DNA of 64,000 bases, from NCBI RefSeq assembly GCF_900169305.1, contig NZ_FWDP01000004.1, positions 1,240,001-1,304,000 on the forward strand, read 5' to 3'. A program made the translations under genes and the position numbers. Origin of the DNA: Marinilactibacillus piezotolerans. Its GTDB lineage: Bacteria; Bacillota; Bacilli; Lactobacillales; Carnobacteriaceae_A. A model generated the notes under the pieces. It saw only the letters and a list, made by a program, of their open reading frames with translations. It did no database searches and was not told the DNA's origin. The first letter of the stretch is position 1; every line of letters begins with the position of its first letter. Positions 4,727 to 62,391 of this stretch are shown in pieces.

Positions 4727-4750
4727 AATTACCTGGTTCTTTCAGTTCAT

Positions 4751-38668: not shown

Positions 38669-38853
38669 TTCTCTACTTCCTCTCGTCCCGAATATGTGAC
38701 CTAATAGTATTAGAACATGAAGAATAGAGCGCTGTCAATTTGGACTGATAAACGACATATACACACTATAATACCAATCCAATTTTAAATAAAAACCATG
38801 ATTAACCTTTATTTAATAGCTTTTTCTAGTTTTTTATACAATTTTAGGACTGG

Positions 38854-38882
38854 TTTACGAGCATTCTATTATTTGTTATGAT
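38854..38882 (+). promoter_or_regulatory. Promoter of the PTS EIIBC gene
   Basis: TTTACG (38854-38859), 17 bp, TATGAT (38877-38882), 44 bp before the ATG. The rest of the 38669-38925 divergent gap holds no gene. Confidence 0.6.
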
Positions 38883-38925
38883 TCTAATTGTAAACGGACA
38901 CAACAATCGGGAAAGGAAGAGAGTT

Positions 38926-40308
38926 ATGAAACATCAAGATGTCGCACAACGCATCATTCAAAACGTAGGAGGCGCTGATAACATTCAGAATGTCTGGCAT
39001 TGTATGACCAGACTGCGCTTTAAATTGAAAGATTATTCTATAGTCGATCATGATGCACTGATGAAAGAAAAAGCTGTTGTAGGAACGAATCATAAAAACG
39101 AGCAGCTGCAGATTGTCATTGGAACAAATGTCAATGAGTACTATGAAACAGTCGCTTCGGAATTGGGAATGGACACATCCTCTGCAACACCGGCAGATGA
39201 ACCAGAAGAACGCAAAGGCATTATTTCTACCTTTATGGATATTGTATCAGGCGTTTTCGGTCCTATCGTACCTGCAATCGCCGGTGCCGGAATGATTATG
39301 GGGCTGATGTCAGGACTAAGTGCTTTAGATATTATTAGTAACGAATCTCACACATATATTGTCATTGATATGATTGCTAAAGGGGTTTTCACTTTCCTAC
39401 CCTTCTTTGTAGCTGCTTCTGCCGCGCGGATCTTCAAGACCAACCAATATCTTGCCATTGCTATTGCAGCTAGTCTGCAAGTACCTGCCATGACAAATGC
39501 TGTTGCTGAAGGTGTCATTGATCAATTCAATCTATTCGGATTTTTGCCAGTCCCTGTCTTTAGCTATGCGGGTACCGTCATCCCTATCATTATTGCTGTA
39601 TGGGCACTGAGCCACATTCACCGCTTTATTGATAAAGTTTTACCAGAAGTCTTAAGAACTGTCTTTACACCGACACTGTCCTTATTTGTTGCAGGAATTC
39701 TAACGTTGGTTGTTATCGGGCCAGCGGGAATTTATCTGGGTAACTGGTTAGCAGCTGGTGTTGAATGGTTGTTTAGCGTTTCTCCAATTCTAGCTGGAAT
39801 TGTCGTTGGAGGTATTCGTCCAATCGCAGTATTTACAGGTCTTCACCATGCAATGACGCCTATCGCTCTTCAAAATTTTGCGAACCAGGGTTACGATATG
39901 CTGATGCCGATGATGTTTATGGCAAATATTGCGATTACTGGTGCTACAGCTGCTATGTATCTGAAAGTCAATACAAAAGAAGAGAAGAGTATTGCTCTTT
40001 CTGCAGTTGTTTCCGGTTTCTTAGGTATTACAGAACCGGCTTTATTCGGAGTGCTGACAAAAAATGCAAAAGCCTTTATTGCAGCAACTGTCGGGAGTTC
40101 AGTTGCCTCAGCGTTTATCAGTTTCTTCGGTGTTAGAATCTATGGATATATTTTATCTAGTGTTTTCAGTTTACCGGCTTACATCGGGGAGTATTTCATA
40201 TTCATAATTTTAGGTATGATCATTTCTTTTGGGGTTTCCTTCGCTATTGCCTATGCACTTGTACCGAATGAGAACGGACAACCTGCACCTGCAAAAGCAC
40301 GTTCATAA
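38926..40308 (+). CDS. PTS transporter EIIBC, glucose/sucrose/beta-glucoside superfamily
   Basis: A 460-residue permease. EIIB (1-85) carries the phosphorylated Cys in NVWHCMTRLRF. EIIC has about ten helices with PVFSYAGTVIPIIIAVW, GLHHAMTPIAL and GFLGITEPALFGV. No EIIA is attached, so it uses one encoded elsewhere. The start at 38926 has AAAGGAAGAG; 16 upstream codons are rejected. The context suggests a substrate feeding the 2-keto-3-deoxygluconate route, for example a hexuronate- or aldonate-containing glycoside. Confidence 0.93.
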   Translation: MKHQDVAQRIIQNVGGADNIQNVWHCMTRLRFKLKDYSIVDHDALMKEKAVVGTNHKNEQLQIVIGTNVNEYYETVASELGMDTSSATPADEPEERKGIISTFMDIVSGVFGPIVPAIAGAGMIMGLMSGLSALDIISNESHTYIVIDMIAKGVFTFLPFFVAASAARIFKTNQYLAIAIAASLQVPAMTNAVAEGVIDQFNLFGFLPVPVFSYAGTVIPIIIAVWALSHIHRFIDKVLPEVLRTVFTPTLSLFVAGILTLVVIGPAGIYLGNWLAAGVEWLFSVSPILAGIVVGGIRPIAVFTGLHHAMTPIALQNFANQGYDMLMPMMFMANIAITGATAAMYLKVNTKEEKSIALSAVVSGFLGITEPALFGVLTKNAKAFIAATVGSSVASAFISFFGVRIYGYILSSVFSLPAYIGEYFIFIILGMIISFGVSFAIAYALVPNENGQPAPAKARS

Positions 40309-40343
40309 AACCTATAATAGACAACTAACTGTATCAACCATTT

Positions 40344-40388
40344 AAAAGAGGTTCCGAGCTGTCATTTCGACAGTACGGAACCTCTTTA
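40344..40388. terminator. Bidirectional terminator after PTS gene and kdgK
   Basis: AAAGAGGTTCCG (40345-40356) pairs with CGGAACCTCTTT (40376-40387); an inner CTGTC/GACAG stem lies in the loop. Both converging genes end beside it. Confidence 0.88.
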
Positions 40389-40389
40389 T

Positions 40390-41334
40390 TTATAAAGAAT
40401 GTTGAATAAAGTCAGCAAGCTCGCTGTTTGTCGGCAATCCTTCGTTGTCGCCGGCATGCTGCACTTGCAGGGCGCCGATTGCGTTAGCTTGAACAGCTGC
40501 TTCGGCCCAAGTCATTCCCTTTAAATATCCATGAAGCACGCCTACTGCGAACCCATCTCCAGCTCCAACAGTATCCACAATCTGATCTACTTTAAAGCCC
40601 GGCACCTGTACAGTCTCTTTACCTCGTTCTGATACGAGTGCTCCGTGACCACCGTTTTTCGTGATCACTGCATCAGCCCCTTGCTTCAGGTAAAACGCTG
40701 CGATGGCTTCAGGATCATCTGAACCGGTCAGGACTTCACCTTCTGCGATGCCGGGCAGCACTACATCAGCATACTGTGCCAGTTCGTTTAATACTTCCAC
40801 CATTTCAGCAGTACTTTCCCATAATGCCGGGCGCAGGTTAGGATCAAATGTAATAAAGGTACCCGCTTTCTTCGCTCTGACCATAAGCTGTTTCACGGCT
40901 TCTCTAACCGTTTCATTCAGAGCAGCCGGTATGCCTGTTACGTGAAACACTTTGATTCCGTCAAACTCGATCTGTGCGGCATCCTCTAATGCAAATGTTG
41001 AAAAAGCACTGCCTTGACGGTAGTAAGCCGTCACCGGATCAGCATCTTTCACGCGATTCTTCAGCATTAATCCAGTATTGTGCTTTGCGCTGAATGTAAT
41101 GAATTGAGTCCCGATCTTTTCTGATTGAATTTTCTGTTTAATGAATGCCCCTATAGGATCTTCCCCCAGCTTCGTGGCATATTCGACTTGATGTCCTAGT
41201 CTTGACAGACCAATCCCTACATTCAATTCTGCTCCAGCTACGGATCTTTTAAAGGTCTCAGCTTCTTCCAGTGTCCCGTATTCCACCGCTGCGAATAATC
41301 CCATCGGTTCTCCTAATAGAAGTACATCTGTCAT
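40390..41334 (-). CDS. kdgK: 2-keto-3-deoxygluconate kinase (PfkB family)
   Basis: A 314-residue ribokinase-family enzyme. GAELNVGIGLSRLGHQVEYATKLGEDPIG and VDTVGAGDGFAVGVLHGYLKG (catalytic Asp) are diagnostic of the fold; YYRQGSAFS resembles KDG kinases. It phosphorylates KDG to KDPG. The start at 41334 has AAGGGGG eight bases upstream. It lies 13 bp after eda, so the two form an operon. Confidence 0.9.
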   Translation of the reverse strand: MTDVLLLGEPMGLFAAVEYGTLEEAETFKRSVAGAELNVGIGLSRLGHQVEYATKLGEDPIGAFIKQKIQSEKIGTQFITFSAKHNTGLMLKNRVKDADPVTAYYRQGSAFSTFALEDAAQIEFDGIKVFHVTGIPAALNETVREAVKQLMVRAKKAGTFITFDPNLRPALWESTAEMVEVLNELAQYADVVLPGIAEGEVLTGSDDPEAIAAFYLKQGADAVITKNGGHGALVSERGKETVQVPGFKVDQIVDTVGAGDGFAVGVLHGYLKGMTWAEAAVQANAIGALQVQHAGDNEGLPTNSELADFIQHSL

Positions 41335-41347
41335 TTTCTGCACCCCC

Positions 41348-41989
41348 TTAAGCCAGTTCCTTGTATTTATTGACGAACTGCTCGGCAGTTTCTGTTACAC
41401 TTTCAAACCCGGCTGTTTTCAACTCTTTTGTCAGCGCACTTCCGATCCCCACAGCCCAAGCGCCGTTTTTGACCCATTCGTGCATATTGTCCAAGCTGAC
41501 GCCGCCAGATGGCATCATTTCAACTTGTGGAATCGGCCCGTGTACATTTTTGATAAATGAAGGTCCCAGAATTCCGCCAGGGAATACTTTCACTACTTCC
41601 ACGCCTGTTTCCATGGCAGCGGTGATTTCTGTTACAGTTGCGCACCCTGGTAAATATGGGATTGCATAAGTATTACAGACTTTTGCGATTTCCGGTACAA
41701 AGTTCGGACTGACGATAAACTCCGCTCCTGCAATAATGGCAATACGCGCCGTCGTTCCATCCATAACGGTTCCTGCACCGATAACCATATCTGTTCCCTC
41801 ATATTTTTTCGCAAGGGACTTGATCGAATCATCTGCCTGAGGTGTCGTAAAGGTCACCTCAATATTCTTAATGCCGCCTTTATAGACAGCCTCAGAAATA
41901 TTCGTCGCTTCATCTGATGAATTCCCTCTAATCACGGCAAATAAATAGTTGTCTTTCAGTTTCGATAAAATGGCTTGTTTTTTTGTCAT
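41348..41989 (-). CDS. eda: KHG/KDPG aldolase
   Basis: A 213-residue class I aldolase. VIRGNS, IEVTFTTP, IGAGTVMD and the Schiff-base Lys in VVKVFPGGILG are conserved, followed by PSGGVSLDN. It splits KDPG into pyruvate and glyceraldehyde 3-phosphate. GGAGGG lies five bases before ATG 41989. With kdgK it completes sugar-acid breakdown started by the ManD-type enzyme. Confidence 0.95.
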   Translation of the reverse strand: MTKKQAILSKLKDNYLFAVIRGNSSDEATNISEAVYKGGIKNIEVTFTTPQADDSIKSLAKKYEGTDMVIGAGTVMDGTTARIAIIAGAEFIVSPNFVPEIAKVCNTYAIPYLPGCATVTEITAAMETGVEVVKVFPGGILGPSFIKNVHGPIPQVEMMPSGGVSLDNMHEWVKNGAWAVGIGSALTKELKTAGFESVTETAEQFVNKYKELA

Positions 41990-42004
41990 AATGCCCTCCA
42001 AATA

Positions 42005-47988: not shown

Positions 47989-48213
47989 TAAATCTTTCTC
48001 CTTTAAACTGTATTAGGGTATTTCAGGCAGCTGGGTAGTTATTCACTACCTGCTTATTTACATTTCATCATATCATACTTTCCAGCAAGTCAACTGACGT
48101 CTGGATTTCACATTTATAGTATAACAAATTCTTTTTTTACCACACCGTATCATTAGAACTCGCGAATAAAATAATTTACAATGAAAGTGATCATGAAGAA
48201 GGAGGATGTACAA

Positions 48214-49212
48214 ATGACAATGAAAAAAATCATCAATAACCCGGACAAAACAGTAGACGAAATGCTGGATGGTCTGGTTTTTGCTTATGATTCACTTGTG
48301 GAACGTATCCCCGAAACAACGGTGATCCATCGAAGACACGAGAAGAATGGAAAAGTAGGATTAGTCAGCGGAGGCGGAAGCGGTCATGAGCCGGCACACG
48401 CAGGCTTTGTAGGTCAAGGGATGTTGTCTGCAGCAGTAGCTGGGCAAGTCTTCACTTCTCCAACACCAGACCAAGTCTTAGAAGGTATCAAAGCTGCCGA
48501 CGAAGGAGAAGGCGTCTTTTTAGTCATCAAGAACTATACAGGTGATGTCTTGAATTTCGATATGGCTAAAGACTTAGCTGAATTGGAAGACATTGAAGTA
48601 GAATCAGTCGTCGTTGATGATGATATTGCTGTTGAAGATAGTACATTTACTGCTGGAAAACGTGGTGTTGCAGGAACCGTGTTGACACACAAAATTCTTG
48701 GAGCAGCCGCAGAAGAAGGCGCGTCTTTAAAAGAGATCAAAGAATTGGCAGACAAAGTCGTCCCTAACCTTTATTCAATCGGATTAGCTTTAAATCCTGC
48801 AACTAACCCAGAAGTCGGCAACCCGGGATTTGAATTGGCTGAGGATGAAATCGAATTCGGCATCGGAATTCACGGAGAGCCTGGTTACCGTAGAGAAAAA
48901 CTGCAGCCATCAAAAGACCTGGCAGCAGAGCTGGTTAAACAGTTGAAGAAAGAGTGCAACTGGTCTGCCGGAGACCATTATGCTGTATTAGTAAACGGTA
49001 TGGGTGCAACGCCATTGATGGAACAATTTGTATTTATGAATGACGTCAAAAAGCTGCTTCAAGATGAAGAAGGCTTGGACTTGCCATTCAGAAAAGTCGG
49101 TGACTACATGACAGCGATCGATATGGAAGGTGTATCACTCACTCTACTGAAATGCGAAGATTCGAAATGGATCGACTATTTAAACGCACCGACAAACGTT
49201 ATCGGCTGGTAA
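48214..49212 (+). CDS. dhaK: Dihydroxyacetone kinase subunit DhaK
   Basis: A 332-residue subunit. GLVSGGGSGHEPAHAGFVGQGML forms the substrate loop and FGIGIHGEPGYRREK carries the His that covalently binds dihydroxyacetone. ATG 48214 is eight bases after GGAGG; earlier in-frame codons lack a site. It is part of the PTS-type kinase, which uses phospho-DhaM, not ATP, to make DHAP. Confidence 0.97.
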   Translation: MTMKKIINNPDKTVDEMLDGLVFAYDSLVERIPETTVIHRRHEKNGKVGLVSGGGSGHEPAHAGFVGQGMLSAAVAGQVFTSPTPDQVLEGIKAADEGEGVFLVIKNYTGDVLNFDMAKDLAELEDIEVESVVVDDDIAVEDSTFTAGKRGVAGTVLTHKILGAAAEEGASLKEIKELADKVVPNLYSIGLALNPATNPEVGNPGFELAEDEIEFGIGIHGEPGYRREKLQPSKDLAAELVKQLKKECNWSAGDHYAVLVNGMGATPLMEQFVFMNDVKKLLQDEEGLDLPFRKVGDYMTAIDMEGVSLTLLKCEDSKWIDYLNAPTNVIGW

Positions 49213-49236
49213 ATTATTTTAGGAAGGAAGAATCGT

Positions 49237-49824
49237 ATGGTTGAAATCGCAAGCTTAAAAAAATGGATTGAACTATTCGGAGAAAAAGTAACTGAAAACA
49301 AGGAACAGTTGAACAAACTGGATTCTGATATTGGTGACGGCGATCACGGAAGCAATTTGACGCGTGGCGCGGCAGCTGTAAAAGAAAAAGTCTCAGATGC
49401 AGAGTACGACAACCTTTCTGACTTTTTCAAAGATGTCGGCATGACACTGGTCAGTAAAGTCGGCGGTGCTTCAGGACCGCTTTACGGATCAGCTTTCATC
49501 TCAATGGCAAAAGCTGCTAAAGAATCCGACGATGCTGCTTCCTTGATCGAAGCAGGACTGGAAGGCATTCAAAAACGCGGTAAAGCTGAGGCCGGCGAAA
49601 AAACAATGGTCGATGAATGGATCCCTGTTGTAGAAGCTCTGAAAAATGGCGGCTTGACGCAAGAAGTCATTCAGGACAGCCTTGAAAAAACAAAAGATAT
49701 GAAAGCTACTAAAGGAAGAGCGTCTTACCTAGGCGACCGTTCAGTGGGACATATTGATCCAGGAGCACAGTCTAGTGCTTATCTATTTGAAAGTTTATTG
49801 GAAGCGGGTGTTTTAAATGGGTAA
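49237..49824 (+). CDS. dhaL: Dihydroxyacetone kinase subunit DhaL
   Basis: A 195-residue ADP-binding subunit. DSDIGDGDHGSNLTRGA holds the Mg-ADP ligands, and GGASGPLYGSAF, KGRASYLGDRSVGHIDPGAQSS follow. It passes phosphate from DhaM to DhaK-bound dihydroxyacetone. It lies 24 bp after dhaK, with AGGAAGG, and overlaps dhaM by 8 bases. Confidence 0.97.
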   Translation: MVEIASLKKWIELFGEKVTENKEQLNKLDSDIGDGDHGSNLTRGAAAVKEKVSDAEYDNLSDFFKDVGMTLVSKVGGASGPLYGSAFISMAKAAKESDDAASLIEAGLEGIQKRGKAEAGEKTMVDEWIPVVEALKNGGLTQEVIQDSLEKTKDMKATKGRASYLGDRSVGHIDPGAQSSAYLFESLLEAGVLNG

Positions 49825-50194
49825 AGAAATTGGAATGTTAGTCGTTTCTCACGTTAATAATATTGCAAACGGCTTATCTACTTTATTAGATCAAGTCGCA
49901 AAAGATGTAACCATTGTGCCAGTCGGCGGTACCGGAGACGGCGAAGTCGGAACAGACTATGAGCGTATCCAAGAAGCAATGGATGCTTTTGAAGAAGATA
50001 AAGTATGGGCATTTTATGATCTGGGCAGTGCAAAAATGAATCTTGAAATGGCGATGGAATCCACTGATAAGGAAGTCCGTCTATTTGATACTGCATTTAT
50101 CGAGAGTGCGTATACAGCCGCTTCGCTGCTTCAAGCAGATGTTGGCGAAGATGCAATCGTTACTCAGCTGGATGAATTGAAAGTCAAAGAATAA
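49817..50194 (+). CDS. dhaM: Dihydroxyacetone kinase phosphotransfer subunit DhaM
   Basis: A 125-residue EIIA-mannose-like protein; the phosphorylated residue is His12 in MLVVSHVNNIANG. PVGGTGDGEVGTDYERI and DLGSAKMNLEMA are conserved. It takes phosphate from HPr. Only the EIIA domain is present, as in Gram-positive bacteria. Confidence 0.95.
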   Translation: MGKEIGMLVVSHVNNIANGLSTLLDQVAKDVTIVPVGGTGDGEVGTDYERIQEAMDAFEEDKVWAFYDLGSAKMNLEMAMESTDKEVRLFDTAFIESAYTAASLLQADVGEDAIVTQLDELKVKE

Positions 50195-51454: not shown

Positions 51455-52888
51455 CTAAACGTATTTAGTCACTACATCAAACCATTGTTTATAATCCTCT
51501 GATTTATCAGTTATAGGATAAAAAATAGTTAGTTTTTCATTTTTCGTTTTCAATTTGACTGCAAGATTTAATGCTCCTAATGCTGACATTTCTTCTTTAG
51601 TGTTTAGTACTATATTCTTTTGTAATACATCAGCCAGTAACTGCATTAAGCGATTATTTTTGATAGCTCCACCATCAACATTGATTTTCCTTACTTTTAT
51701 CTGACTCGTTACTTCCATTACGTCAATAACTGCTTTTATTTGATAAACTATCGTATCAAAACCAGCTCGAATAATATGATTTTTTGTACTATTACGGCCC
51801 AATCCCACTATCGCTCCATTTGGTTCCGGTTCCCAAAAAGGCGCTCCTAAACCTAATTGAGCTGGCACAATATAAACGCCATCACTGTCTGAAATTGAAA
51901 AAGCCTTTTCTGATCCTTCTGAGACTGTTTCAAATAATCCTAATTCATTTGACATCCAATTCAAAGTATCTGTGCATGATCGGATAATACCTTCTAAAGC
52001 GTAGGAAGTTTTATTATTAATTTTCCATCCAATCGTCTTCAAGATTGTCTCATTTCCTGAATCTAGATCACTTTCTATTTGCATCAAGACAGAACATCCT
52101 GTGCCTAAAGTTGCTTTCACATCTCCTTTTTCTGTTAATCCTTGTCCGTATAAAGCTCCTTGTGAATCAGCTATTACTCCGACAATCGGAATACCTTCAA
52201 AACTGCCAAACTGACTATCCGAAGAGTAAACTTCAGGTAAAGATTCAATTGGCGTATCAAACAATTCGCAAAGTTCTTTATCCCAGCTCTCTGTATGGAT
52301 ATTATAGAGTAATGTGCGAGAAGCATTACTACTATCCGTTGCAAATATTTTTCTATTGGTCAAGTTCCAAATCAACCATGAATCAATTGTCCCCACTGCT
52401 AAATTCTGATTTTGTCTAATCGCTGGAAAAGATTGAAACAACCAGCTTAATTTAGGAGCTGAAAAATATGTATCTATTTTTAACCCCGTTTTCTTTTGTA
52501 CAACAGCTTCTTTCCCTCTATTGATAAGCTGCTTACAAATATCTAAACTTCTGTTACATTGCCATACCATAGCATTGTGTAATGGTTTCCCAGTATTTTT
52601 ATCCCAGACAACAATTGTTTCTCGCTGATTCGTCAATGAGATGCTTTTAACATCTTCTTTTTGTAATACCGTTTCGTCAAGTAACTGATTAAACAACGAT
52701 TTTACATTTTCTAAAATTTCTAACGGATCATGCTCAACCCACCCTTTTTTGGGATAAATTTGCTTATGACTTTTATCAATTCTTTTTTTAATCAGAGGAA
52801 CGCCTTCTTCATTTATTGACACCAAAAGAAGCTTAGTTCCTGAAGTGCTCTGATCAATAATCACTCTATAATCTTCTTTAACATCCAA
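51455..52888 (-). CDS. FGGY family carbohydrate kinase, candidate apulose kinase
   Basis: A 477-residue kinase with both FGGY domains: VIIDQSTSGTKLLLV (phosphate-1 loop), LTNQRETIVVWDKNTGKPLHNAMVWQ, GTIDSWLIWNLT, ATLGTGCSVLMQ and DGGAIKNNRLMQLLADVL. It looks like glycerol kinase in places, but no glycerol genes flank it. TTG 52888 lies after GGAGGG. It is the last gene of the cluster at 51455-61141 and would phosphorylate the ketose made by the isomerase-like protein. If the cluster handles apiose, the substrate would be apulose; xylulose or similar is the alternative. Confidence 0.88.
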   Translation of the reverse strand: MDVKEDYRVIIDQSTSGTKLLLVSINEEGVPLIKKRIDKSHKQIYPKKGWVEHDPLEILENVKSLFNQLLDETVLQKEDVKSISLTNQRETIVVWDKNTGKPLHNAMVWQCNRSLDICKQLINRGKEAVVQKKTGLKIDTYFSAPKLSWLFQSFPAIRQNQNLAVGTIDSWLIWNLTNRKIFATDSSNASRTLLYNIHTESWDKELCELFDTPIESLPEVYSSDSQFGSFEGIPIVGVIADSQGALYGQGLTEKGDVKATLGTGCSVLMQIESDLDSGNETILKTIGWKINNKTSYALEGIIRSCTDTLNWMSNELGLFETVSEGSEKAFSISDSDGVYIVPAQLGLGAPFWEPEPNGAIVGLGRNSTKNHIIRAGFDTIVYQIKAVIDVMEVTSQIKVRKINVDGGAIKNNRLMQLLADVLQKNIVLNTKEEMSALGALNLAVKLKTKNEKLTIFYPITDKSEDYKQWFDVVTKYV

Positions 52889-52908
52889 TTAATATTCCCT
52901 CCACTACG

Positions 52909-53766
52909 CTATTGTTGTGCATTCAACCACCCTATGAGCAAATTTACCCATGTAGATGCTTGTTTATTACTTTGATTTTCTTTTCTACTTGTTCGGCTAT
53001 CTGCCAAAGCCACACCATGGACTCCTTTTTCGTATATATGAAGCTCATATGGTCTGTCTTTTTCATCCATTGCCATCGCAAATTTTAAAGAATCCGCCGC
53101 TTCCACTAGAGGATCTTCTCCTGTATGCCAAATGAAAGCCGGTGGAGTATACTTATTTACATGATAAACTGGAGAAACTCTCATTAAATCATCTTTTCCT
53201 GCTTTTAGTTTCCCAGTAATAGCTAAAGATATAAGACTTTCTTCGTCTTGTGAGTTAGTTAAATCTAACGCTCCATAAGCAATTATGATATGATTTGGTT
53301 GGTAAGATGCTTTTTTTCTTCCCACTAATTTTTCTAACCAATTTTCATTCCAATAAACTCCAAGTAACCCTACTAAATTACCACCTGCTGAAAATCCTAA
53401 TACAGATATTTTATCTTCTTCTATAAACCATTTTTCTTTATTTTCTCTTAATAGTGATAGAGTTTCTGCTAACTCTAATAAAGGATTCGGGAATTGAGAT
53501 ACAGGCTCCTTTGGTAAGTCAGCTTTAGATTGATAAGCTTCCAATCCTTCTGTGCAGTAACGTACTACTGCTACATGATAATCTTTAGCAAAAAATTCTA
53601 AAGCGATTGGCTCAGCTTCTCGATCAGAGGTCCACATATAACCACCACCTGGTACCACCACCATAACTGGATATTTTCTATTTTTATCAATTTCATCACT
53701 CGGTTCATGTAAATAAAAAGTAATTTCTGCATTATTTTTGCCAATTGTATTCTTAAAATATCTCAT
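52909..53766 (-). CDS. Alpha/beta hydrolase, sugar esterase-like
   Basis: A 285-residue BD-FAE/acetyl-esterase type hydrolase. VVPGGGYMWTSDREAE gives the oxyanion hole, VLGFSAGGNLVGLLG the nucleophile Ser, HTGEDPLVEA the Asp and EKGVHGVAL the His. No signal peptide is present, so it acts on imported, acylated sugars. GGAGG lies before ATG 53766. It is 20 bp before the kinase gene and 75 bp after the PTS gene. Confidence 0.9.
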   Translation of the reverse strand: MRYFKNTIGKNNAEITFYLHEPSDEIDKNRKYPVMVVVPGGGYMWTSDREAEPIALEFFAKDYHVAVVRYCTEGLEAYQSKADLPKEPVSQFPNPLLELAETLSLLRENKEKWFIEEDKISVLGFSAGGNLVGLLGVYWNENWLEKLVGRKKASYQPNHIIIAYGALDLTNSQDEESLISLAITGKLKAGKDDLMRVSPVYHVNKYTPPAFIWHTGEDPLVEAADSLKFAMAMDEKDRPYELHIYEKGVHGVALADSRTSRKENQSNKQASTWVNLLIGWLNAQQ

Positions 53767-53840
53767 TTTATCTCCTCCATTGCATTCTCAAAATTCATAC
53801 TTATATTTGAATTCTATTCTATAAGTTATTTCTTCAGTTT

Positions 53841-55109
53841 TTATTTTGTGTTTATATCAATTTCAAGATTTTCTAATTCACGTTTTTGCTTATCTAGTTT
53901 TTTTACAAAAGGATAATAAATTAACATACAAACTGGTACTAGCAATACCTGTAAAAGTGCATACTTCCAGCTTCCAGCTAGAAATCCTTGTAGTATTATC
54001 GGAGTCCCAAAAGGAAGTGTAATACCAAAACCGATCGGTAAAATGTTGAATACAACTAAAATATAGCCTACAAGTAAACATACAATTGGAGATAAAATAT
54101 AGGGAATAGCCAAAATCGGATTTAAAACAAAAGGTACTCCAAACATAAGTGGTTCATGTATTCCAAAAAGAGCTCCAGGTGCGCCAAGTTTAGCAATAAC
54201 TTTTAATTCTTTACTTTTTGTGAAGAATAACAAGACTAAAACAAAACCAATCATCGGAGGCAGCATGCTATAAACTGTCATTCCTGAAATGATATTTGGT
54301 CGCTCAACACCAGCTCGAAATGCTTCTAAATTTTGAAGATCAAGTGCTGTCCAAATAGGAGTCATTACAGACATAACAACTATTGCTCCGTGAATCCCCA
54401 AAACCCACAATATTTGCATCAAAAAAACAGCAAACAGCATTGACCAAATTGAATTTCCCAACCCTTGTAATGGTAGTTGTAACACTGAATAAACCATTTG
54501 ATGTAAACTACCAAATTCTGTATTCTCAAAAATCCAATAAAGAATTACAGATAATATACAAATAACTATAGCTGGAATTAAACCAATAAAGCTTCTAGAA
54601 ATTGTAGGCGGAACACTATCTGGCATTTTAATCACAATATCTTTTCTTACAATCCATACATACAGTCGACATGTTGTTAATGAAATTATAATAGCTGCAA
54701 ATAATCCTTGTGGACCTAGCCATTCAAAGCTTAAAGCAGCAATCGATTGAGAATCTATTTCAATATTGGTAACGGGAGTAATAATAAAAAAAGCGAGTAA
54801 AGAAACAATGCCTGGTATTATACCGTCCATGTCAAATGTCATAGCAAGCCGATTAGAAATCATGTATACTGCATACACTGAAAGCATACTTGTTGTAAAC
54901 ATTGAAGGAAGCGCAATATAACTTCTTATAGGATCAATCCACTCTTGGTATTTCCAGATTTGCATAGAAGCTAATAATGAACTGAAAGCTCCAATAACCA
55001 TCAACGGAAGCAAAGAAGCAAGTCCATTTGAAATAGCTGACATATATCTATTTTGCTGTATCTTTGATGCAATTAATTGCCCGCTATTAATTAAGCGTTG
55101 AGTATCCAT
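53841..55109 (-). CDS. PTS EIIC permease, lactose/cellobiose family
   Basis: A 422-residue EIIC with eight to ten helices. GLFAAIIISLTTCRLYVWIVRKDIVIKMPDSVPPTISRSFIGLIP, ILWVLGIHGAIVVMSV and LGAPGALFGIHEPLMFGVPFVLNP are family motifs. EIIA and EIIB are not nearby. The start at 55109 (MDTQRLINSG) has AAGGAAAG; 13 upstream codons are rejected. It is a second transporter for the cluster, probably for a beta-linked di- or oligosaccharide. Confidence 0.92.
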   Translation of the reverse strand: MDTQRLINSGQLIASKIQQNRYMSAISNGLASLLPLMVIGAFSSLLASMQIWKYQEWIDPIRSYIALPSMFTTSMLSVYAVYMISNRLAMTFDMDGIIPGIVSLLAFFIITPVTNIEIDSQSIAALSFEWLGPQGLFAAIIISLTTCRLYVWIVRKDIVIKMPDSVPPTISRSFIGLIPAIVICILSVILYWIFENTEFGSLHQMVYSVLQLPLQGLGNSIWSMLFAVFLMQILWVLGIHGAIVVMSVMTPIWTALDLQNLEAFRAGVERPNIISGMTVYSMLPPMIGFVLVLLFFTKSKELKVIAKLGAPGALFGIHEPLMFGVPFVLNPILAIPYILSPIVCLLVGYILVVFNILPIGFGITLPFGTPIILQGFLAGSWKYALLQVLLVPVCMLIYYPFVKKLDKQKRELENLEIDINTK

Positions 55110-55237
55110 AATCTTTCCTTCTTTCTTATATAAGTCATCATTATCCAAATACTTTATCTAAAATTAAAATAATCCGCTTACATTTTTCAAAAACAGCCAT
55201 TGTACCCAATATTTTTATTAGATACAATGCTGTAATT

Positions 55238-56194
55238 TTATAATATTTTTGTTAATAGATTTTTTGCTACTTTTGTTAGATGATCCGGATGTAGCCCATA
55301 ATGTTTGAATACTTCTTGACTATTACCAGTAATAGCTGGCTCATCTGCTATTCCAACAATTTTATGAGGAACAGAGTGTTGATCACTTAAAGTTTCTGCA
55401 ATTGCTCCTCCAAGCCCTCCATAAATACTGTGTTCTTCCACAGAAATAATGGCTTTCGTTTCTTCTGCAGCTTTTATAATCACTTCTCTGTCTAATGGTT
55501 TGATTGTGTGCATATTGATTACTCTAGCAGCAATCCCTTCTTTTTCTAATCGTTCAGCAGTATCTAATGCTGGTCGCACAGTTTCTCCTGAGGCAATAAT
55601 CGTTATGTCATCGCCATCTTTCAAAGTAACTGCTTTCCCAATCTCAAAATCATAATCTGTAGAATCATACGTATCTTCTACTGGATTACGTCCAATACGA
55701 ATATACGCTGGTTGATCTGAGTGACACAATGCTTCAAACATCTTTTCAGTCTCAAAGCGGTCAGCTGGCATCATCACTTGTAAATTTGGAATTGCTCGTG
55801 TCACTGCAAGATCTTGTAGCGAATGATGGCTCATGCCTAATTGTCCATACGCAACACCTCCACTTATTCCAACGAGTTTAACATTGGTATCAGAATACGC
55901 TACGTCGACTTTCACCTGTTCTATACTTCGCATGCTCAGAAAGGCTGCAGGTGAAACAGCAAAAGATCTCTTACCACTATGAGCCATGCCTGCTGCAATA
56001 CTAACAATATTCTGTTCAGAAATCCCAACCTCTACTAACTGATCAGGTAACGCTTCTGCAAAGTCGGCCAATTTAGCAGATCCTCTTGAATCGCTTGTCA
56101 AAACAGTAATATCTCTATTTTCTTTTCCCTCTTTCAGAAGAACTTTACACATAACTTCTCTGTTGGGAATGCTATTATTTTCTTTAAATGTCAT
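55238..56194 (-). CDS. Transketolase C-terminal subunit
   Basis: A 318-residue subunit with the pyrimidine-binding domain (KLADFAEALPDQLVEVGISEQNIVSIAAGMAHSGKRSF, with Glu of the TPP site) and the C-terminal domain (ISVEEHSIYGGLGGAIAETL). With its partner it makes the split transketolase found in specialised sugar pathways. AGGAGGTGC-like GGAGGTG precedes the start, overlapping the previous gene by 11 bases. In apiose pathways a split transketolase acts on apulose 4-phosphate. Confidence 0.94.
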   Translation of the reverse strand: MTFKENNSIPNREVMCKVLLKEGKENRDITVLTSDSRGSAKLADFAEALPDQLVEVGISEQNIVSIAAGMAHSGKRSFAVSPAAFLSMRSIEQVKVDVAYSDTNVKLVGISGGVAYGQLGMSHHSLQDLAVTRAIPNLQVMMPADRFETEKMFEALCHSDQPAYIRIGRNPVEDTYDSTDYDFEIGKAVTLKDGDDITIIASGETVRPALDTAERLEKEGIAARVINMHTIKPLDREVIIKAAEETKAIISVEEHSIYGGLGGAIAETLSDQHSVPHKIVGIADEPAITGNSQEVFKHYGLHPDHLTKVAKNLLTKIL

Positions 56195-57026
56195 TCTTCA
56201 GCACCTCCAATTGACTATCGAACGACTTCATTGCTCCTGTAAATTCTTCTTCAGTAGCAACCTTGTGATGCCAATTAATTTGGTTTTCAGCAAATGATAA
56301 TCCCTTTCCTTTTGTAGTATGAGCAATAATCATTTTAGGTTTTCCTTTTTCATGAGCAGTATTAAATGAATTCAGCAACTGTTCAATCGAGTTCCCATCA
56401 TCAATTTCAATAACTTGCCATCCAAATGCTTCAAATTTTTCTTTTAGCGGATCTACTCCCATTACCTCTTCGCTTTTACCTGTAATTTGAAGTCCATTTC
56501 TGTCAATAACTGCAGTCAGATTATCTAATTTATAATGAGCTGCAGCCATTGCGCCTTCCCAGACTGATCCTTCTGCTAATTCCCCATCACCCAATAATGT
56601 ATACGTATGGTATGATTTATTATCTTTTTTAGCAGCTAATGCAATACCGACAGAAAGTGAAAGCCCATGTCCTAGTGAACCTGTGTTCATTTCTATTCCT
56701 TCTACTTTATTATTCGGATGTCCGATTAAACGAGATCCAAATGAATAGAATGTTTTTAGTTCTTCTTTCGGAAAAAATCCTTTTTCAGCCAACACAGCCC
56801 ATAAAGCTTCAGCCGCATGTCCCTTACTTTGAATATAACGATCTCTGTCTGGGTCATCTGGTGTGTTAGGATCTATATTCATCATTTGAAAATAAAGAGT
56901 AGTCAGAATATCTGTACAAGACATGTCAGATCCAGTATGCCCACTCTGTCCATATTCAATGATTTCCATAATTGATTTGCGAATTTCAATAGCTTTAATT
57001 TCTAATTTTTTTACAGTTTTATCCAT
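56184..57026 (-). CDS. Transketolase N-terminal subunit
   Basis: A 280-residue TPP-binding subunit: GHTGSDMSCTDILTTLYF, KGHAAEALWAVLAEKG, TGSLGHGLSLSVGIALAAK, LLGDGELAEGSVWEGAMAAAHYKLDNLTAVIDRNGLQ (GDG...N motif) and HTTKGKGLSFAEN. AGAGGAG lies eight bases before ATG 57026. It pairs with the next gene; a housekeeping full-length transketolase would be encoded elsewhere. Confidence 0.95.
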   Translation of the reverse strand: MDKTVKKLEIKAIEIRKSIMEIIEYGQSGHTGSDMSCTDILTTLYFQMMNIDPNTPDDPDRDRYIQSKGHAAEALWAVLAEKGFFPKEELKTFYSFGSRLIGHPNNKVEGIEMNTGSLGHGLSLSVGIALAAKKDNKSYHTYTLLGDGELAEGSVWEGAMAAAHYKLDNLTAVIDRNGLQITGKSEEVMGVDPLKEKFEAFGWQVIEIDDGNSIEQLLNSFNTAHEKGKPKMIIAHTTKGKGLSFAENQINWHHKVATEEEFTGAMKSFDSQLEVLKNDI

Positions 57027-57028
57027 AT

Positions 57029-58462
57029 TTACTCTCCTCTTAGATATCCTTGAACCTCTTCTTCAATTGGATCATAAAAATCTGGAGTAATCCCAAGATA
57101 TTTACAAGCTTCATATAGTACAGGTACAACTTCAGCATGAACGACTGCAACATGATGGATATAAGGACCGTATACTAATTTTGTTTCTAATCTTGCTAAG
57201 TTATCAAATTCAACCCATGAATAAGTTCCTTGCGTATAAGGTCCGTCAATCACTTCAGCATTTCCCATCAGTAATGAATATTCTCCATTGTCTCCATCAA
57301 AACGACAAAGTGTTAAAGTTCCAGGTTTAGCTTCGAATGCAACAGAGCCAGGATAGTCAAAAACAAAGTGACTTTCAGGTAGTACAGGTTTGTCTTTAGC
57401 AGTAGAGAAAGGGAACACCCCTAAGTGTTGCAGCAATTCTCCATTATCATTGTGAGGATGACGATTATTAACGTCTGCAAACATCGCTCTATGCTCTCCT
57501 AAAGTTGCTGCTTCTACAAGCAATTCCGAAATCACACCATGCACATCAGTTTCACAAGTTACTGGCAACCCTTCATCTTGTAAAAGTGATTCCGTTGCAT
57601 AAGGTAAGATGCCAATTTCATCTTGTAAAGCTGTCCAGCATTGTATAACGCCTGAATTACATCCATATTTTTCAGTTAAATTCCTGATTGCAACTTTCAA
57701 TGCTATAACCATCTCTACTTTATCATCAGCAATTTCAACAATAGCAATACTGCGAAGGTTTTCAATTCCTTCCGCTAGTTTGCTTTTTTCCTCCACTAAA
57801 ACTCGATCAATTTCTTTTGTCAATTCTTGCAATGGAATAGGAGACAACTGAATATTAAATTTTTCTAGCAGCTCGCCCTCATTTGTCATTGTTGACCAGA
57901 AATCAAAAGGTCTTGTTCCGATTTGCAAAATTCTAGTATTTTTAAAGACTTTAATTACGTTACATACTTTTTCAAAAACTTTGACTCCACGAGAAAATGT
58001 TTCGTCTTCTAAATCACAGTTTGGAATGTATGTGAAAGGTACTTGAAAACGTCTAAGCACTTTTCCTATAGCAAACAGACCACATTGACTGTCTCGTAAT
58101 CGCGACCCATCCTCTGCTGGATGCTCGTCTCTTGGTCCCCATAATAAAACTGGAACATTTAATTTTTTTGCTAATCTTGCAACCGCCCATTCATTACCAA
58201 AATTTTCGTTAGCAACAAATAAACCATCAATTCCTTCATCTGTAAATTTTTTATAGATTCTCTCCACACCTTCATCATCGTATAAAAGACCATCGTCATT
58301 AATATCTTTTATATCGATATAATCTATATCAAGTTGATCAAGTTTTTTTCTTGTCAGGTCAGCATATTCCATTGCAGTTTCTGCACTAAATAAATTTCTT
58401 CTTGTTGGAGCAAAGCCAATTTTCACTTTATCTTTTTTCACTATATTCATTCCTTTAGTCAT
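57029..58462 (-). CDS. L-fucose/L-arabinose isomerase-like protein
   Basis: A 477-residue protein with the FucI/AraA fold: VKIGFAPTRRNLFSAETA, FVANENFGNEWAVARLAKKLNVPVLLWGP, CETDVHGVISELLVEAATLG (candidate metal Glu and Asp) and HNDNGELLQHLGVFPF. The family is distant from true fucose or arabinose isomerases. The ATG overlaps the previous stop (ATGA); GTG 58441, with AAAGGA nine bases upstream, is an alternative start. In this cluster it most likely interconverts an aldose and its ketose, possibly apiose and apulose. Confidence 0.85.
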   Translation of the reverse strand: MTKGMNIVKKDKVKIGFAPTRRNLFSAETAMEYADLTRKKLDQLDIDYIDIKDINDDGLLYDDEGVERIYKKFTDEGIDGLFVANENFGNEWAVARLAKKLNVPVLLWGPRDEHPAEDGSRLRDSQCGLFAIGKVLRRFQVPFTYIPNCDLEDETFSRGVKVFEKVCNVIKVFKNTRILQIGTRPFDFWSTMTNEGELLEKFNIQLSPIPLQELTKEIDRVLVEEKSKLAEGIENLRSIAIVEIADDKVEMVIALKVAIRNLTEKYGCNSGVIQCWTALQDEIGILPYATESLLQDEGLPVTCETDVHGVISELLVEAATLGEHRAMFADVNNRHPHNDNGELLQHLGVFPFSTAKDKPVLPESHFVFDYPGSVAFEAKPGTLTLCRFDGDNGEYSLLMGNAEVIDGPYTQGTYSWVEFDNLARLETKLVYGPYIHHVAVVHAEVVPVLYEACKYLGITPDFYDPIEEEVQGYLRGE

Positions 58463-59730
58463 TTTTTCAACACAATAACGCTATCTTTAATAATGGAAGT
58501 CATTTCGATTTTTGTTATTCCTTCAGAAGCTTTTTTCTTGATTGGAATATTGACTTTATTTTCTAAATCAATGGCATAATCAGTTGACGACTCAAACACT
58601 CCTTTTATCGAGAGAGGAATATTGACTGGCAAATAAATATAAATTTTATCTTCACTTTCAGAAATTCTAATATCTGCTATATCATTTATTAGATACTCTT
58701 GATTTGGCTTTAATTCTACTAAATTTTCTTTAGTGAAAAATTCTTTCAAAAACCCATAATCGTTTGCTCCTTCAAAGTTAAGCGCTGTTCTCCAATTGTA
58801 AGGTGGAGCAAACCCTTCACCAAGATCGGAACCAAACACGCTACCTACTTCATGCCAACTCCAGATTCCGTGAGCTCCATAGGCTATACCTGCAAAGGCT
58901 CCGGATAAAATACTCTGCCAAGCTGCTTTTCTTACATCTTCTCTACTAAAACGACCATACAAATTCCTACTATAGGATATTAATTCATAACAAGGTTCAG
59001 AATTGATCGTAGGACGAATTGGTGATTCATTATAAAAATAATCAGCAAATTCATACGCTACATTTTGATACTGCAAATTGTGACCGGATTGATAAAAATA
59101 CATATCTAGATCTGGATGATTGAGAAGTTTTTCTGGAATATCTTTCAATCCTCTTTTTATATGCAACACTTTTAAACTATCAGCATCATTTGCTTGCGTA
59201 GCTTCTAAACACCTCAGGTAATAATCTACTACGTTTTCAGTAAGGAAATCTGTATCTCCACTAATTAAATAAATCGGATTATATTTTTTGAATCGATTAA
59301 CCATTTTTTCCGTATATGTTCTTACATCTTGCTTTCTAAAGTAAGGGGTTTTTTCCATATTTCCAGCCCAAGTTTCTGGTAAATAATTACTCCAAAGAAG
59401 GACTAATGCAGGAATGAAGCCTTTTTCTTGAGCTATTTCAAGCATTTTTTCAGCATGATCGAAATAATGTTCATCCATTTTATTGATATTAAAGTACTGA
59501 TCTTCTACTTCAAAAGGATAAACCACTTCTTTGGTTACACTGCGATCCCATTGCGGCATTATATTGATTTGCAGAACGTTAAATCCTTGTTCTTTCCGCT
59601 TATCTAAATAGTATGCCCAATCATTTAATTCAATATTAGTAAACGCACTCCAAACCGTATCAGCTAAATAGAAAAAAGGTTTATTATCTAGTTGTAAACT
59701 TCTTTTATTATCACTTACTCTTAACAACAA
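58459..59730 (-). CDS. Apiosidase-like glycoside hydrolase (DUF4038, GH140-like)
   Basis: A 423-residue TIM-barrel hydrolase. KPFFYLADTVWSAF and KEQGFNVLQINIMPQW begin the DUF4038 domain; YLISGDTDF holds a candidate catalytic Asp, and PTINSEPCYELISYS a candidate Glu, followed by AYGAHGIWSWHEVG. A small beta domain follows at about 330-423. No signal peptide: it acts inside the cell. GH140 enzymes cut apiose-Rha or apiose linkages of rhamnogalacturonan II; exact specificity here is unproven. The start is TTG 59730. Confidence 0.85.
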   Translation of the reverse strand: MLLRVSDNKRSLQLDNKPFFYLADTVWSAFTNIELNDWAYYLDKRKEQGFNVLQINIMPQWDRSVTKEVVYPFEVEDQYFNINKMDEHYFDHAEKMLEIAQEKGFIPALVLLWSNYLPETWAGNMEKTPYFRKQDVRTYTEKMVNRFKKYNPIYLISGDTDFLTENVVDYYLRCLEATQANDADSLKVLHIKRGLKDIPEKLLNHPDLDMYFYQSGHNLQYQNVAYEFADYFYNESPIRPTINSEPCYELISYSRNLYGRFSREDVRKAAWQSILSGAFAGIAYGAHGIWSWHEVGSVFGSDLGEGFAPPYNWRTALNFEGANDYGFLKEFFTKENLVELKPNQEYLINDIADIRISESEDKIYIYLPVNIPLSIKGVFESSTDYAIDLENKVNIPIKKKASEGITKIEMTSIIKDSVIVLKK

Positions 59731-59755
59731 AATACCACCTGTCCTTTTACTTTTT

Positions 59756-61141
59756 TTACTTAGTTAAAACTTTATCTTCTTTAAACCCAATAAAATATGT
59801 TAACAATGTTGAAATCAGGAATGCTGCGCCAAGAGAGATCAAAAATCCTATGAACCCTGCTGTAACTCCAGTTGATGGATCTATAAACATTGGAATACCG
59901 AAAACTCCTCCTGATGCAAATCCACCAAACATATTAGCACCGAACGCTCCTGCAATCGCTCCTCCAACACCAGATCCAATACAAGCCATAATGAATGGTT
60001 TTTTCGTAGGGAGATTAACTCCGTAAATTGCTGGTTCAGTTATTCCCAGAAATCCTGAAATCGTTGCAGTAGTCGCAAGCCCTTTCAATTTAGCATCTTT
60101 TGTCTTAAGCATTACAGCTAATGCTGCCCCTGTTTGAGCAAATACAGTACAGTACAACATTGCATTAATCGGATCAAAACCATAAACAGAAATATTATTG
60201 ATAAAAATAGGAATAAACGCCCAATGTAAACCGAATATAACCGTTACTTGCCAGATGGAAGCTAAAAGTAGTCCCGCTACTAATGGACTTAATCCATAAA
60301 GCGCTAATGCTCCATCAGCCAAAAGATTACTTATTGTTTGCGTAACTGGTCCTACAACCATTAATGAAATAGGTACCACGATGATCAATATTAATAAAGG
60401 TACGAATATCATTTTCAATGTTTTAGGTATAACTTTGTTTAAGAATTTTTCTACAACACTCAAAAAATATACAGATACAATGACCGGTACAACAGACTGA
60501 GTATAATTCATTAGAACAACCGGTATATTTAAGAACGATAACTGCGCTCCACTAGTGGCCATTTCTACCAGAGTCGGATAAACCAGTGCCGCTCCCATCG
60601 CAGCACCCATAAACTGATTTGTTTTGAAGACTTTAGCAGCTGTAAAACCTAGAAATATTGGCAAAAAGTAATAGAATGCGTCACTAGCTGCAAATAGAAC
60701 TTGATATACACCGCTTGTATCATCAATTAATCCTACTACTATAAGTGCTGTTAAAAACCCTTTCAAAATACCCGAAGCGGCTAGTATTCCTATAACTGGT
60801 GTAAAAATCCCTGAAACAATGCCTAATATTTTATCAAAAATAGACTGATCTTCTTGTTGATCGAAATCTTTTGCATCAACTTCATCTTTAAAGTTTATCC
60901 CTAATATATTGATAACATGTTTGTACACTTCAGAAACTTGATCTCCGATGACTACTTGATATTGACCACCGCTCTCTATAACTGTTATCACATCTTCTAA
61001 ATTCTTTATTTCTTCTGTATCTGCTTTACTACGATCTTTCAAGTTAAACCTTAATCTAGTGGCACAGTGAATAACATCATTTACATTATTTTCCCCGCCC
61101 ACTTTCTCTATTATTATGGCTGCTAATTTATCATAATCCAT
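59756..61141 (-). CDS. PTS transporter EIIBC, beta-glucoside/sucrose superfamily
   Basis: A 461-residue permease. EIIB (1-85) with active Cys in VIHCATRLRFNLKDR, and EIIC with SVVPVIVSVYFLS, GLHWAFIPIFINN and SGFLGITEPAIYGV. No EIIA. AAAGGATAG precedes ATG 61141. It is the first gene of the cluster, directly behind the LacI operator region, and is the likely main importer of the glycoside, phosphorylating it on entry. Confidence 0.93.
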   Translation of the reverse strand: MDYDKLAAIIIEKVGGENNVNDVIHCATRLRFNLKDRSKADTEEIKNLEDVITVIESGGQYQVVIGDQVSEVYKHVINILGINFKDEVDAKDFDQQEDQSIFDKILGIVSGIFTPVIGILAASGILKGFLTALIVVGLIDDTSGVYQVLFAASDAFYYFLPIFLGFTAAKVFKTNQFMGAAMGAALVYPTLVEMATSGAQLSFLNIPVVLMNYTQSVVPVIVSVYFLSVVEKFLNKVIPKTLKMIFVPLLILIIVVPISLMVVGPVTQTISNLLADGALALYGLSPLVAGLLLASIWQVTVIFGLHWAFIPIFINNISVYGFDPINAMLYCTVFAQTGAALAVMLKTKDAKLKGLATTATISGFLGITEPAIYGVNLPTKKPFIMACIGSGVGGAIAGAFGANMFGGFASGGVFGIPMFIDPSTGVTAGFIGFLISLGAAFLISTLLTYFIGFKEDKVLTK

Positions 61142-61176
61142 ATTCTTCTATCCTTTCTATTTGAAAACTAATATTT

Positions 61177-61256
61177 TTAAATCGCTTTCTTTAACAAAAG
61201 AATAACCCATCTACTAAAATAAGTCAATTCTTTTATATAAACTAATCGCTTTCTTT
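61177..61256 (-). promoter_or_regulatory. Two cre-like direct repeats upstream of the cluster
   Basis: AATCGCTTTCTTT occurs at 61180-61192 and 61244-61256. On the minus strand they read as AGAAAGCGATTTAA (12 of 14 to the cre consensus) and AGAAAGCGATTAGT (11 of 14). They would allow CcpA control. Confidence 0.45.
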
Positions 61257-61298
61257 TATGCTATTTTTAGTTATTTTTATATAAAAACCTTTATTTAT

Positions 61299-61355
61299 GC
61301 TAAAAGCTAATACTTTAGCTTGTTAATTTTACTAAAAATGATATAATTTTAGTAA
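61299..61355. promoter_or_regulatory. Two operators for the divergent LacI regulator
   Basis: GCTAAA-N9-TTTAGC (61299-61319) and TTACTAAAA-N9-TTTTAGTAA (61329-61355) share CTAAA-N9-TTTAG. Their centres are 33 bp apart, about three helix turns. They lie between the cluster and lacI-type gene. Confidence 0.7.
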
Positions 61356-61383
61356 GTTATTTTAGTTGGTAGGAGAAATGAAA

Positions 61384-62391
61384 ATGAAAATTGAAGATAT
61401 AGCTCAACTAGCCAATGTTTCTAAATCAGCTGTTTCCTTAGCTATAAATGGAAAGCCTGGTGTAAGCAATGAAACGCGTGAGAAAATATTAGCTATTGCA
61501 AAAGAATATAACTATAAACCACTACGAAGTACATCTAACCGTACTAACAATAAATCTACTATTAGGTTTATTATATCCAAAAGTCCTGACCTTATAACAG
61601 ATCAATATTATAATCTGCCTTTTTTCAATGAATTAATAAGCCATTTATCTTCAAGTATTAGTGATTACCCTTACGATTTAGTCATTTCAACTTTTGATGA
61701 AAGAACGCTTTTAGAGGAATTAGAAGCTGCAGAAAGAGTACAGAAATCCAAAGGAATCATACTCTTAGGAACAAACATTGATAAACCTAATATTAATCTC
61801 ATAAGAAAACAGTTTAAAAATCTTGTAATTTTAGATACTCACTACTCTGATGTTGATGCAAATTTTGTTTCGATCAACAACTTTTTAGGTGGATATTCAG
61901 CTGCAGAGTTCTTAATAGATAAAGGACATAAAAAAATTGGATATATAATGGGTATTCCACGAATTGCTAATTTTAAAGAAAGACAAAAAGGATTCTTTTC
62001 AAAACTTCACAATGAAGGATTATCAATTTCTGATGACTACATTTTCAAATTACCCGCAATGAAAATTCAAGAAGGATCAGAATTAGATGCGGTTTTTTTG
62101 AATGTTGAAGATTTACCTACAGCTATTTTCTGTGAAAATGATTATATGGCAATCAGCTTGATTAAGTACTTGAAAAATTCAAATATACATGTCCCTGAAC
62201 AAATTTCAGTAGTCGGATTTGATGACATTCCTGAAAGTAGAGTCACAACTCCAGAACTGACTACTATACAAGTAGACAAAAAAGAGATGGCTATTCAGGC
62301 TCTTGATCTTTTAGAAAAACAAATTCAAAATTCTAATGCTCATAAACATATTCAAGTCAATACTTCGCTAATAGTACGAGAAAGTTCTTAA
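61384..62391 (+). CDS. LacI family transcriptional regulator of the sugar cluster
   Basis: A 335-residue regulator. KIEDIAQLANVSKSAVSLAINGKPGVSNETREKI is the LacI helix-turn-helix with hinge helix; a periplasmic-binding-like ligand domain follows, ending SLIVRESS. ATG 61384 is eight bases after AGGAG. It is divergent from the cluster and has two operator-like palindromes next to it, one overlapping its own promoter. Confidence 0.95.
   Translation: MKIEDIAQLANVSKSAVSLAINGKPGVSNETREKILAIAKEYNYKPLRSTSNRTNNKSTIRFIISKSPDLITDQYYNLPFFNELISHLSSSISDYPYDLVISTFDERTLLEELEAAERVQKSKGIILLGTNIDKPNINLIRKQFKNLVILDTHYSDVDANFVSINNFLGGYSAAEFLIDKGHKKIGYIMGIPRIANFKERQKGFFSKLHNEGLSISDDYIFKLPAMKIQEGSELDAVFLNVEDLPTAIFCENDYMAISLIKYLKNSNIHVPEQISVVGFDDIPESRVTTPELTTIQVDKKEMAIQALDLLEKQIQNSNAHKHIQVNTSLIVRESS

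Follow-up and report, generated by a model that had tools for sequence, protein, structure and literature searches.

A candidate apioside utilisation operon in Marinilactibacillus piezotolerans with phosphotransferase-type uptake genes and an isomerase from a sister clade of the enterobacterial type

The stretch of Marinilactibacillus piezotolerans DNA analysed here (64,000 nucleotides, positions 1240001-1304000 of contig 1 in a genome of 2.29 Mb; hereafter the window) carries eight minus-strand open reading frames (ORFs) behind a divergent LacI gene, and our comparisons suggest that this operon very probably serves the utilisation of apiosides, by a known pathway with a variant uptake and a different branch of isomerase. 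Apiose is the best-supported sugar, because the core genes (isomerase, kinase and two-part transketolase) are akin to an enterobacterial apiose gene set, the hydrolase is of GH140 type, the hydrolase family PF13204 is linked to the isomerase, and a sugar-binding protein type is shared with the enterobacterial clusters; that apiose is the substrate of the core module is quite likely. An earlier reading made from the letters alone (the sequence-only reading) had proposed an apiose cluster with uptake by the phosphotransferase system (PTS). The sugar and the set of isomerase, kinase and two-part transketolase were borne out by comparison, whereas import of an apioside by the PTS is only plausible. 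Position and order of the genes agree with that reading in the ORF list and in Pfam. With overlaps of 4 bp between the hydrolase and isomerase genes and of 11 bp between the two transketolase genes, the spacing is operon-like. The features are as follows (EII, enzyme II of the PTS).

51455..52888, minus strand: FGGY kinase, GlpK-like, proposed D-apulose kinase (FGGY_N/FGGY_C; TIGR01311 470 bits, cut-off 590)
52909..53766, minus strand: BD-FAE-type esterase, accessory (PF20434, 86 bits)
53841..55148, minus strand: PTS EIIC of the lactose/cellobiose family, accessory (PTS_EIIC; TIGR00410 305.6 bits, cut-off 236)
55238..56194, minus strand: transketolase C-terminal subunit, AptB-like (PF02780/PF02779, Transketolase_C and Transket_pyr)
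56184..57026, minus strand: transketolase N-terminal subunit, AptA-like (PF00456, Transketolase_N)
57029..58462, minus strand: FucI/AraA-superfamily isomerase of clade A, proposed D-apiose isomerase (Fucose_iso_C 29.7 bits, cut-off 29.3)
58459..59730, minus strand: GH140-type apiosidase, by homology (PF13204 298.4 bits, cut-off 26.5)
59756..61141, minus strand: PTS EIIBC of beta-glucoside type, without IIA (PTS_EIIC and PTS_EIIB; TIGR01995 588.9 bits, cut-off 614.7)
61331..61353, no strand: inverted repeat ACTAAAA-9-TTTTAGT, conserved in the M. psychrotolerans locus L006, a weak candidate operator
61366..62391, plus strand: divergent LacI-family regulator (PF00356, PF13377)

The non-oxidative D-apiose pathway, reportedly described by Carter et al. 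2018, is said to proceed through ApsI, ApsK (AplK) and AptAB in this order of reactions. The window has the same kinds of enzyme, a FucI/AraA-superfamily isomerase, an FGGY kinase and a two-part transketolase, here in one operon. We found enterobacterial clusters via plasmid records searched with AptA of the E. coli SE15 cluster (L086) and with the window isomerase, and in those of Rahnella, Sodalis and Klebsiella the genes for transketolase A, transketolase B, a protein labelled “fucose” or “L-fucose/L-arabinose isomerase family”, and a kinase follow one another. The enterobacterial apiose-type clusters carry ATP-binding cassette (ABC) genes, whereas the window has PTS instead of ABC import, an apiosidase within the operon, and LacI in place of the enterobacterial sugar-binding regulator. 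According to excerpts of one report, D-apiose supports the growth of E. coli strains of STc131 and STc14 whose cluster includes aplK, aptA and aptB, and apsI is the isomerase gene in Pectobacterium and is absent from Escherichia; for the use of apiose by Bacteroides and Clostridia, the same excerpts cite Carter et al. 2018 (PMC13001218).

The families, their linkage and their kinship to the enterobacterial gene set are supported by comparison with other genomes. We analysed the best 80 of 390 confirmed stretches, a set that leans to close relatives, and counted genes by score anywhere in the locus and not by adjacency, using PF13204-like profiles built from the members found there (searches with the Pfam model covered the window protein, L092 and L087). 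Transketolase A was present in 80/80 loci, transketolase B in 78/80 and the kinase in 75/80, and because all four core genes including the isomerase occurred together in 75/80 loci, their grouping is not a matter of chance. The kinase was lacking in L031, L045, L065, L074 and L078 and transketolase B in L031 and L045; except for L078, these loci lie on contigs that end shortly after. A PF13204-like gene was found in 28 of the 80 loci (27 at a score of at least 384 bits, one at 42), which include 12 of the 14 Lactobacillales loci L006-L019, a beta-glucoside (bgl)-type PTS in 8/80, and an apiose-type binding protein in 15/80. Across 295 Lactobacillales genomes, an isomerase orthologue (at least 63% identity) was present in 18 and PF13204 over its cut-off in 15, all within those 18; these counts leave out a 22%-identity paralogue in G163 and a below-cut-off PF13204 match in G023, a genome without the isomerase. 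The two genes were less than 6 kb apart on one contig in 13 of the 15 genomes and on different contigs in G045 and G215. The association gave Fisher p values of 1.4e-22 by genome and 6.7e-8 by genus (7/10 versus 0/64 genera), uncorrected for shared descent, and the genomes are not independent, seven of the 15 PF13204 genomes belonging to one genus (g15). Two isomerase matches (G192:C3 and G071) show a stop inside the aligned stretch, and within the window's own genus the isomerase was present in only two of five genomes.

The binding proteins in the 15 loci are 49-61% identical to that of Rahnella, and with locus L166 the number becomes 16 clusters at 49-67%; the E. coli protein is 42-44% identical to Rahnella's. 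Those tested (Rahnella, L166 and E. coli) all match PDB 5ibq best, a structure that we take to have been solved with apiose, and the L166 protein scores 442 bits against 5ibq versus 224 against a ribose-binding protein.

The sequence-only reading had called the hydrolase GH140-like and proposed a profile search as the check; with 298.4 bits to PF13204 (Apiosidase), the protein falls inside. Its solved relatives in a PDB sequence search are 8t9w, named “Apiosidase”, BT_1012 (3kzs/5msy) and 4qfu, and a fold comparison of the predicted model (pLDDT confidence score 81) is also headed by these structures, with 8t9w as the best match (template modelling (TM) score 0.83, E 2.3e-26). Residues D159 and E245 align with an Asp and a Glu of BT_1012 and 8t9w and are invariant in 10/10 rows of an alignment of hydrolase relatives; we take the aligned Asp and Glu of BT_1012 to be the catalytic residues. 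Compared with the GH140 apiosidases 8t9w and BT_1012 (5msy), the window hydrolase thus appears to have the same fold and the same catalytic pair at 20-24% identity in the fold alignment, and differs in showing, by eye, no signal peptide, because of which it is probably intracellular. A protein of DUF5060-PF13204-DUF5605 architecture, a second kind of apiosidase-like enzyme, stands near the module in 17 loci (for example L092, 16694-18229), and an alpha-L-rhamnosidase-type family recurs in 12 loci.

The isomerase scores barely above the Fucose_iso_C cut-off, its Listeria homologue below it (23.9 bits), and the Rahnella isomerase 110 bits. Its predicted fold is that of L-arabinose isomerase (TM 0.82; model pLDDT 89), and neither a single-sequence nor a profile search of the PDB gave a sequence match. 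The protein had been described as unusual in the sequence-only reading, a description that we do not retain: in Rahnella, Sodalis and Klebsiella, the apiose-type clusters also code for a FucI/AraA-superfamily isomerase, placed between transketolase pair and kinase, which rules out a one-off oddity. The window protein is another branch of the expected kind. Our trees were built from chosen sequences (53 for the isomerase, 58 for the kinase, 50 for the transketolase) by a quick method with SH-aLRT branch support only, and long branches were flagged. In the isomerase tree, clade A (24 rows, support 99) and clade B, which includes the enterobacterial proteins (12 rows, support 100), are sisters (support 99), with the SftI-like proteins apart. 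The window isomerase belongs to clade A, is 29% identical to the enterobacterial type, and is not a direct orthologue of the presumed ApsI; its closest named relative in the scan is that of Marinilactibacillus psychrotolerans DSM 19582 (L006; 97% identity). Clades A and B have 18 conserved polar positions in common; at 11 of them the SftI-like majority has another residue, and seven (R22, W276, E304, D306, D330, H346 and H437) are common to A, B and the SftI-like proteins. Both clades occur with the other core genes: locus L160 has a clade B isomerase with transketolase A and B, kinase and LacI, and in locus L166 a clade A isomerase is accompanied by the transketolase pair and kinase as well as by DUF2291, ABC genes and a binding protein. 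Between L166 and Rahnella, identity is 67% for the binding proteins and 24.5% for the isomerases, and the likeness of the binding proteins is, in our view, the best evidence that clade A may act on apiose. On the contig of L075, a full clade A module is preceded at about 3 kb by a distant clade B isomerase and an FGGY kinase (3557-6468).

The transketolase N subunit is 47% identical to AptA of E. coli SE15, and the C subunit is 63% identical to that of the Listeria locus L087 and 36% to AptB of Rahnella. In the transketolase A tree, the window-type proteins and the enterobacterial AptA fall into one group of 38 (support 97), which also takes in three from clade B loci and two further ones. Outside this group are other split transketolases, including the genome's own second one, and some that stand beside clade B isomerases (L158 and L159). 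The genome also codes for a full-length transketolase; the N part of its second split one lies at 711181-711915 of contig 1. Behind a single clade B isomerase, L158 (9934-15963) and L159 (9839-15928) each carry two distinct transketolase pairs of the two-part kind, one of which lies outside the apiose-type group. The kinase is GlpK-like yet under the GlpK cut-off, as are the cluster kinases of E. coli and Rahnella (495 and 476 bits), and since two other genes of the same genome pass it (736 and 727 bits), the operon kinase can be ruled out as the cell's glycerol kinase. In the kinase tree, 36 cluster kinases including E. coli AplK, together with one from L075, are on one side (support 91), and 13 GlpK proteins and two others are on the opposite side (support 87). 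The kinase comparisons are the weakest part of the link to the apiose pathway.

The chemistry of apiose breakdown would be unchanged by these genes; the less usual part, judging from the gene content, is the uptake, in which a beta-glucoside-type PTS is combined with an apparently intracellular apiosidase and, in lactobacilli, with a GH1 enzyme encoded nearby. The EIIBC matches positions 1-452 of 618 of TIGR01995, with IIB and IIC matched and IIA missing. A bgl-type PTS gene adjoins the GH140 gene in the window, in L006, in Listeria L087 and in several lactobacilli. A GH1 gene was found in the flanks of nine loci, eight of them Lactobacillales in our grouping; two of three GH1 proteins tested score above a 6-phospho-beta-glucosidase cut-off, and the window's genome has nine GH1 matches, one of them a fragment. 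The esterase and the lactose-family EIIC are absent between transketolase B and the kinase in M. psychrotolerans, and we thus regard both as accessory; an esterase relative stands beside the PTS/GH140 genes in L016 and L171, and perhaps the enzyme de-acylates glycosides. On the minus strand at 55198-55229, between transketolase B and the EIIC, a 14-pair hairpin with a T-rich tail lies exactly where the M. psychrotolerans operon lacks EIIC and esterase, although the scan overall gave fewer such sites than shuffled sequences.

The simplest reading, because a bgl PTS stands beside a hydrolase without a signal peptide, is that an apiosyl-glucoside is imported and cut inside the cell. In this mechanism, whose individual reactions, PTS substrate, GH1 step and regulation we infer, the beta-glucoside-type PTS would import an apiosyl-glucoside and phosphorylate its glucose, and the intracellular GH140 enzyme would release D-apiose. 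The isomerase would convert D-apiose to D-apulose, the kinase would produce apulose 4-phosphate, and the two-part transketolase would transfer a two-carbon unit to glyceraldehyde 3-phosphate, with xylulose 5-phosphate and dihydroxyacetone phosphate as products. Cleavage of the leftover phospho-glucoside would fall to a GH1 enzyme whose gene lies elsewhere in the genome, and LacI would repress the operon until the sugar is present. We consider the import of an apioside by the PTS to be evenly balanced. The sequence-only reading had suggested seagrass apiogalacturonan as the source, for which our analysis gave nothing in support; the type of the PTS would point to small apiosyl-glucosides instead.

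Several observations weigh against this reading. The operon has no EIIA gene and the GH1 gene lies outside it, 52/80 loci have no PF13204-like gene within the stretch examined, and three of the 18 genomes with the isomerase lack PF13204 (G204, G210 and G292). No transketolase appears in the stretch seen for L167 and L168, which branch deep in clade A, or for L161-L164 of clade B, so that the clade alone does not fix the sugar, and the Rahnella-type isomerase is equated with ApsI from its position only. The window kinase shares 35% identity with AplK and 38-39% with the GlpKs of the same genome, and support in the kinase tree is below 95. Alternatively, the pathway could be the same and the PTS genes could import one or more other glycosides, with apiose entering by a different carrier and the hydrolase acting on unphosphorylated apiosides. 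Such an arrangement, unlikely but deserving serious attention, is suggested by the presence of two incomplete PTS parts from different families and by the ABC importer that accompanies the module in place of a PTS in 15/80 loci and in L166; the recurrent adjacency of bgl-type PTS and GH140 genes argues against it, as does Pfam, which showed no ABC importer gene in the window operon.

A different substrate for the PF13204 protein and the isomerase, namely another apiose-like sugar of branched or furanose type, is improbable in our estimate. PF13204 is broad, the isomerase is distant from the enterobacterial one, and loci without transketolase occur in both clades, all of which would suit such a sugar; on the other hand, the binding-protein type, the transketolase group and the sister clade of the isomerase are held in common with the enterobacterial apiose clusters, and the closest solved hydrolase is named apiosidase. 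A sulfoquinovose (sulfo-transketolase) route, with SqvD/SftI and SqwGH, is hardly credible. Its isomerase is of the same superfamily and its transketolase, SqwGH, is described as two-part in an excerpt of PMC11659671, and the only NCBIfam match of the window isomerase is the sulfoquinovose isomerase SftI (NF048012). This match, however, reaches 103 bits against a cut-off of 700, and the Rahnella isomerase likewise matches only this model at a similar 116 bits; moreover, the SftI-like proteins, which are so named by 444-536 bits only and none of which passes the cut-off, form another group in the tree, and on these grounds we ruled the route out. The kinase and the apiosidase also have no place in the route as described, and the SftI cut-off was passed in 0/299 Bacillota genomes.

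A Listeria monocytogenes gene set (L087; NZ_LR134403.1, 4004-13086), annotated as glycerol kinase, beta-glucoside PTS and DUF4038, closely resembles the operon, with LacI, an isomerase of 63%, a transketolase pair of 62-63% and a kinase of 49% identity, a bgl PTS, and a GH140 protein of 58.5% identity. It differs in gene order, in an IIA domain in the PTS, and in having no second EIIC or esterase. We take these genes to be lmo1030-lmo1036, and to regard them as apioside genes is a re-annotation by homology. According to an excerpt, lmo1035-lmo1036 have been named a beta-glucoside PTS subunit and a beta-glucosidase, and their transcript is bound by the small RNA RliI (PMC8079631). It is conceivable, and we propose it tentatively as somewhat short of an even chance, that a second, phosphotransferase-coupled form of apiose catabolism exists in Lactobacillales including Listeria, with 6-phosphate entry, a GH140 enzyme accepting the phosphorylated glycoside, and a clade A isomerase exchangeable with clade B in otherwise equivalent gene sets. 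If the operon is indeed one for apiosides, genes misnamed as glycerol kinase, beta-glucosidase and fucose isomerase in lactobacilli, gut Lachnospiraceae and Listeria would gain a function, it would become apparent how these organisms may exploit apiose from plant glycosides and pectin, and apiosidases that may act on phosphorylated glycosides would become available. Within the literature searched (one licence class; titles and the starts of abstracts), we found no link of the operon or its Listeria form to apiose, nothing joining apiose, apulose and transketolase, and nothing joining apiose with a solute binding protein or 5ibq; the clade A isomerase may have been described in papers outside that scope, such as Carter et al. 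2018.

Upstream of the operon, the inverted repeat at 61331-61353 overlies the -10 of a promoter-like site of the regulator (61320-61347). The promoter and terminator scans gave no more sites than in shuffled sequence, and the catabolite-response (cre) pattern had two matches in the window against 1.5 expected, none in the operon. The sequence ATCGCTTTCTTT occurs twice between LacI and the operon (61181-61192 and 61245-61256), the first copy alone being conserved in L006, and is a possible regulator site.

Elsewhere in the window, three plus-strand genes at 48181-50194 resemble dhaK, dhaL and dhaM when their translations are inspected by eye, in agreement with the sequence-only reading. It had suggested that they could act on three-carbon by-products; the three-carbon product of the pathway carries a phosphate already, and dhaKLM would not be needed. 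The genes at 37469-42001 may form another sugar-acid cluster; inspected by eye, they appear to code for a dehydratase of the mandelate-racemase type, a PTS EIIBC, a sugar kinase of the PfkB type and a protein like 2-keto-3-deoxy-6-phosphogluconate (KDPG) aldolase.

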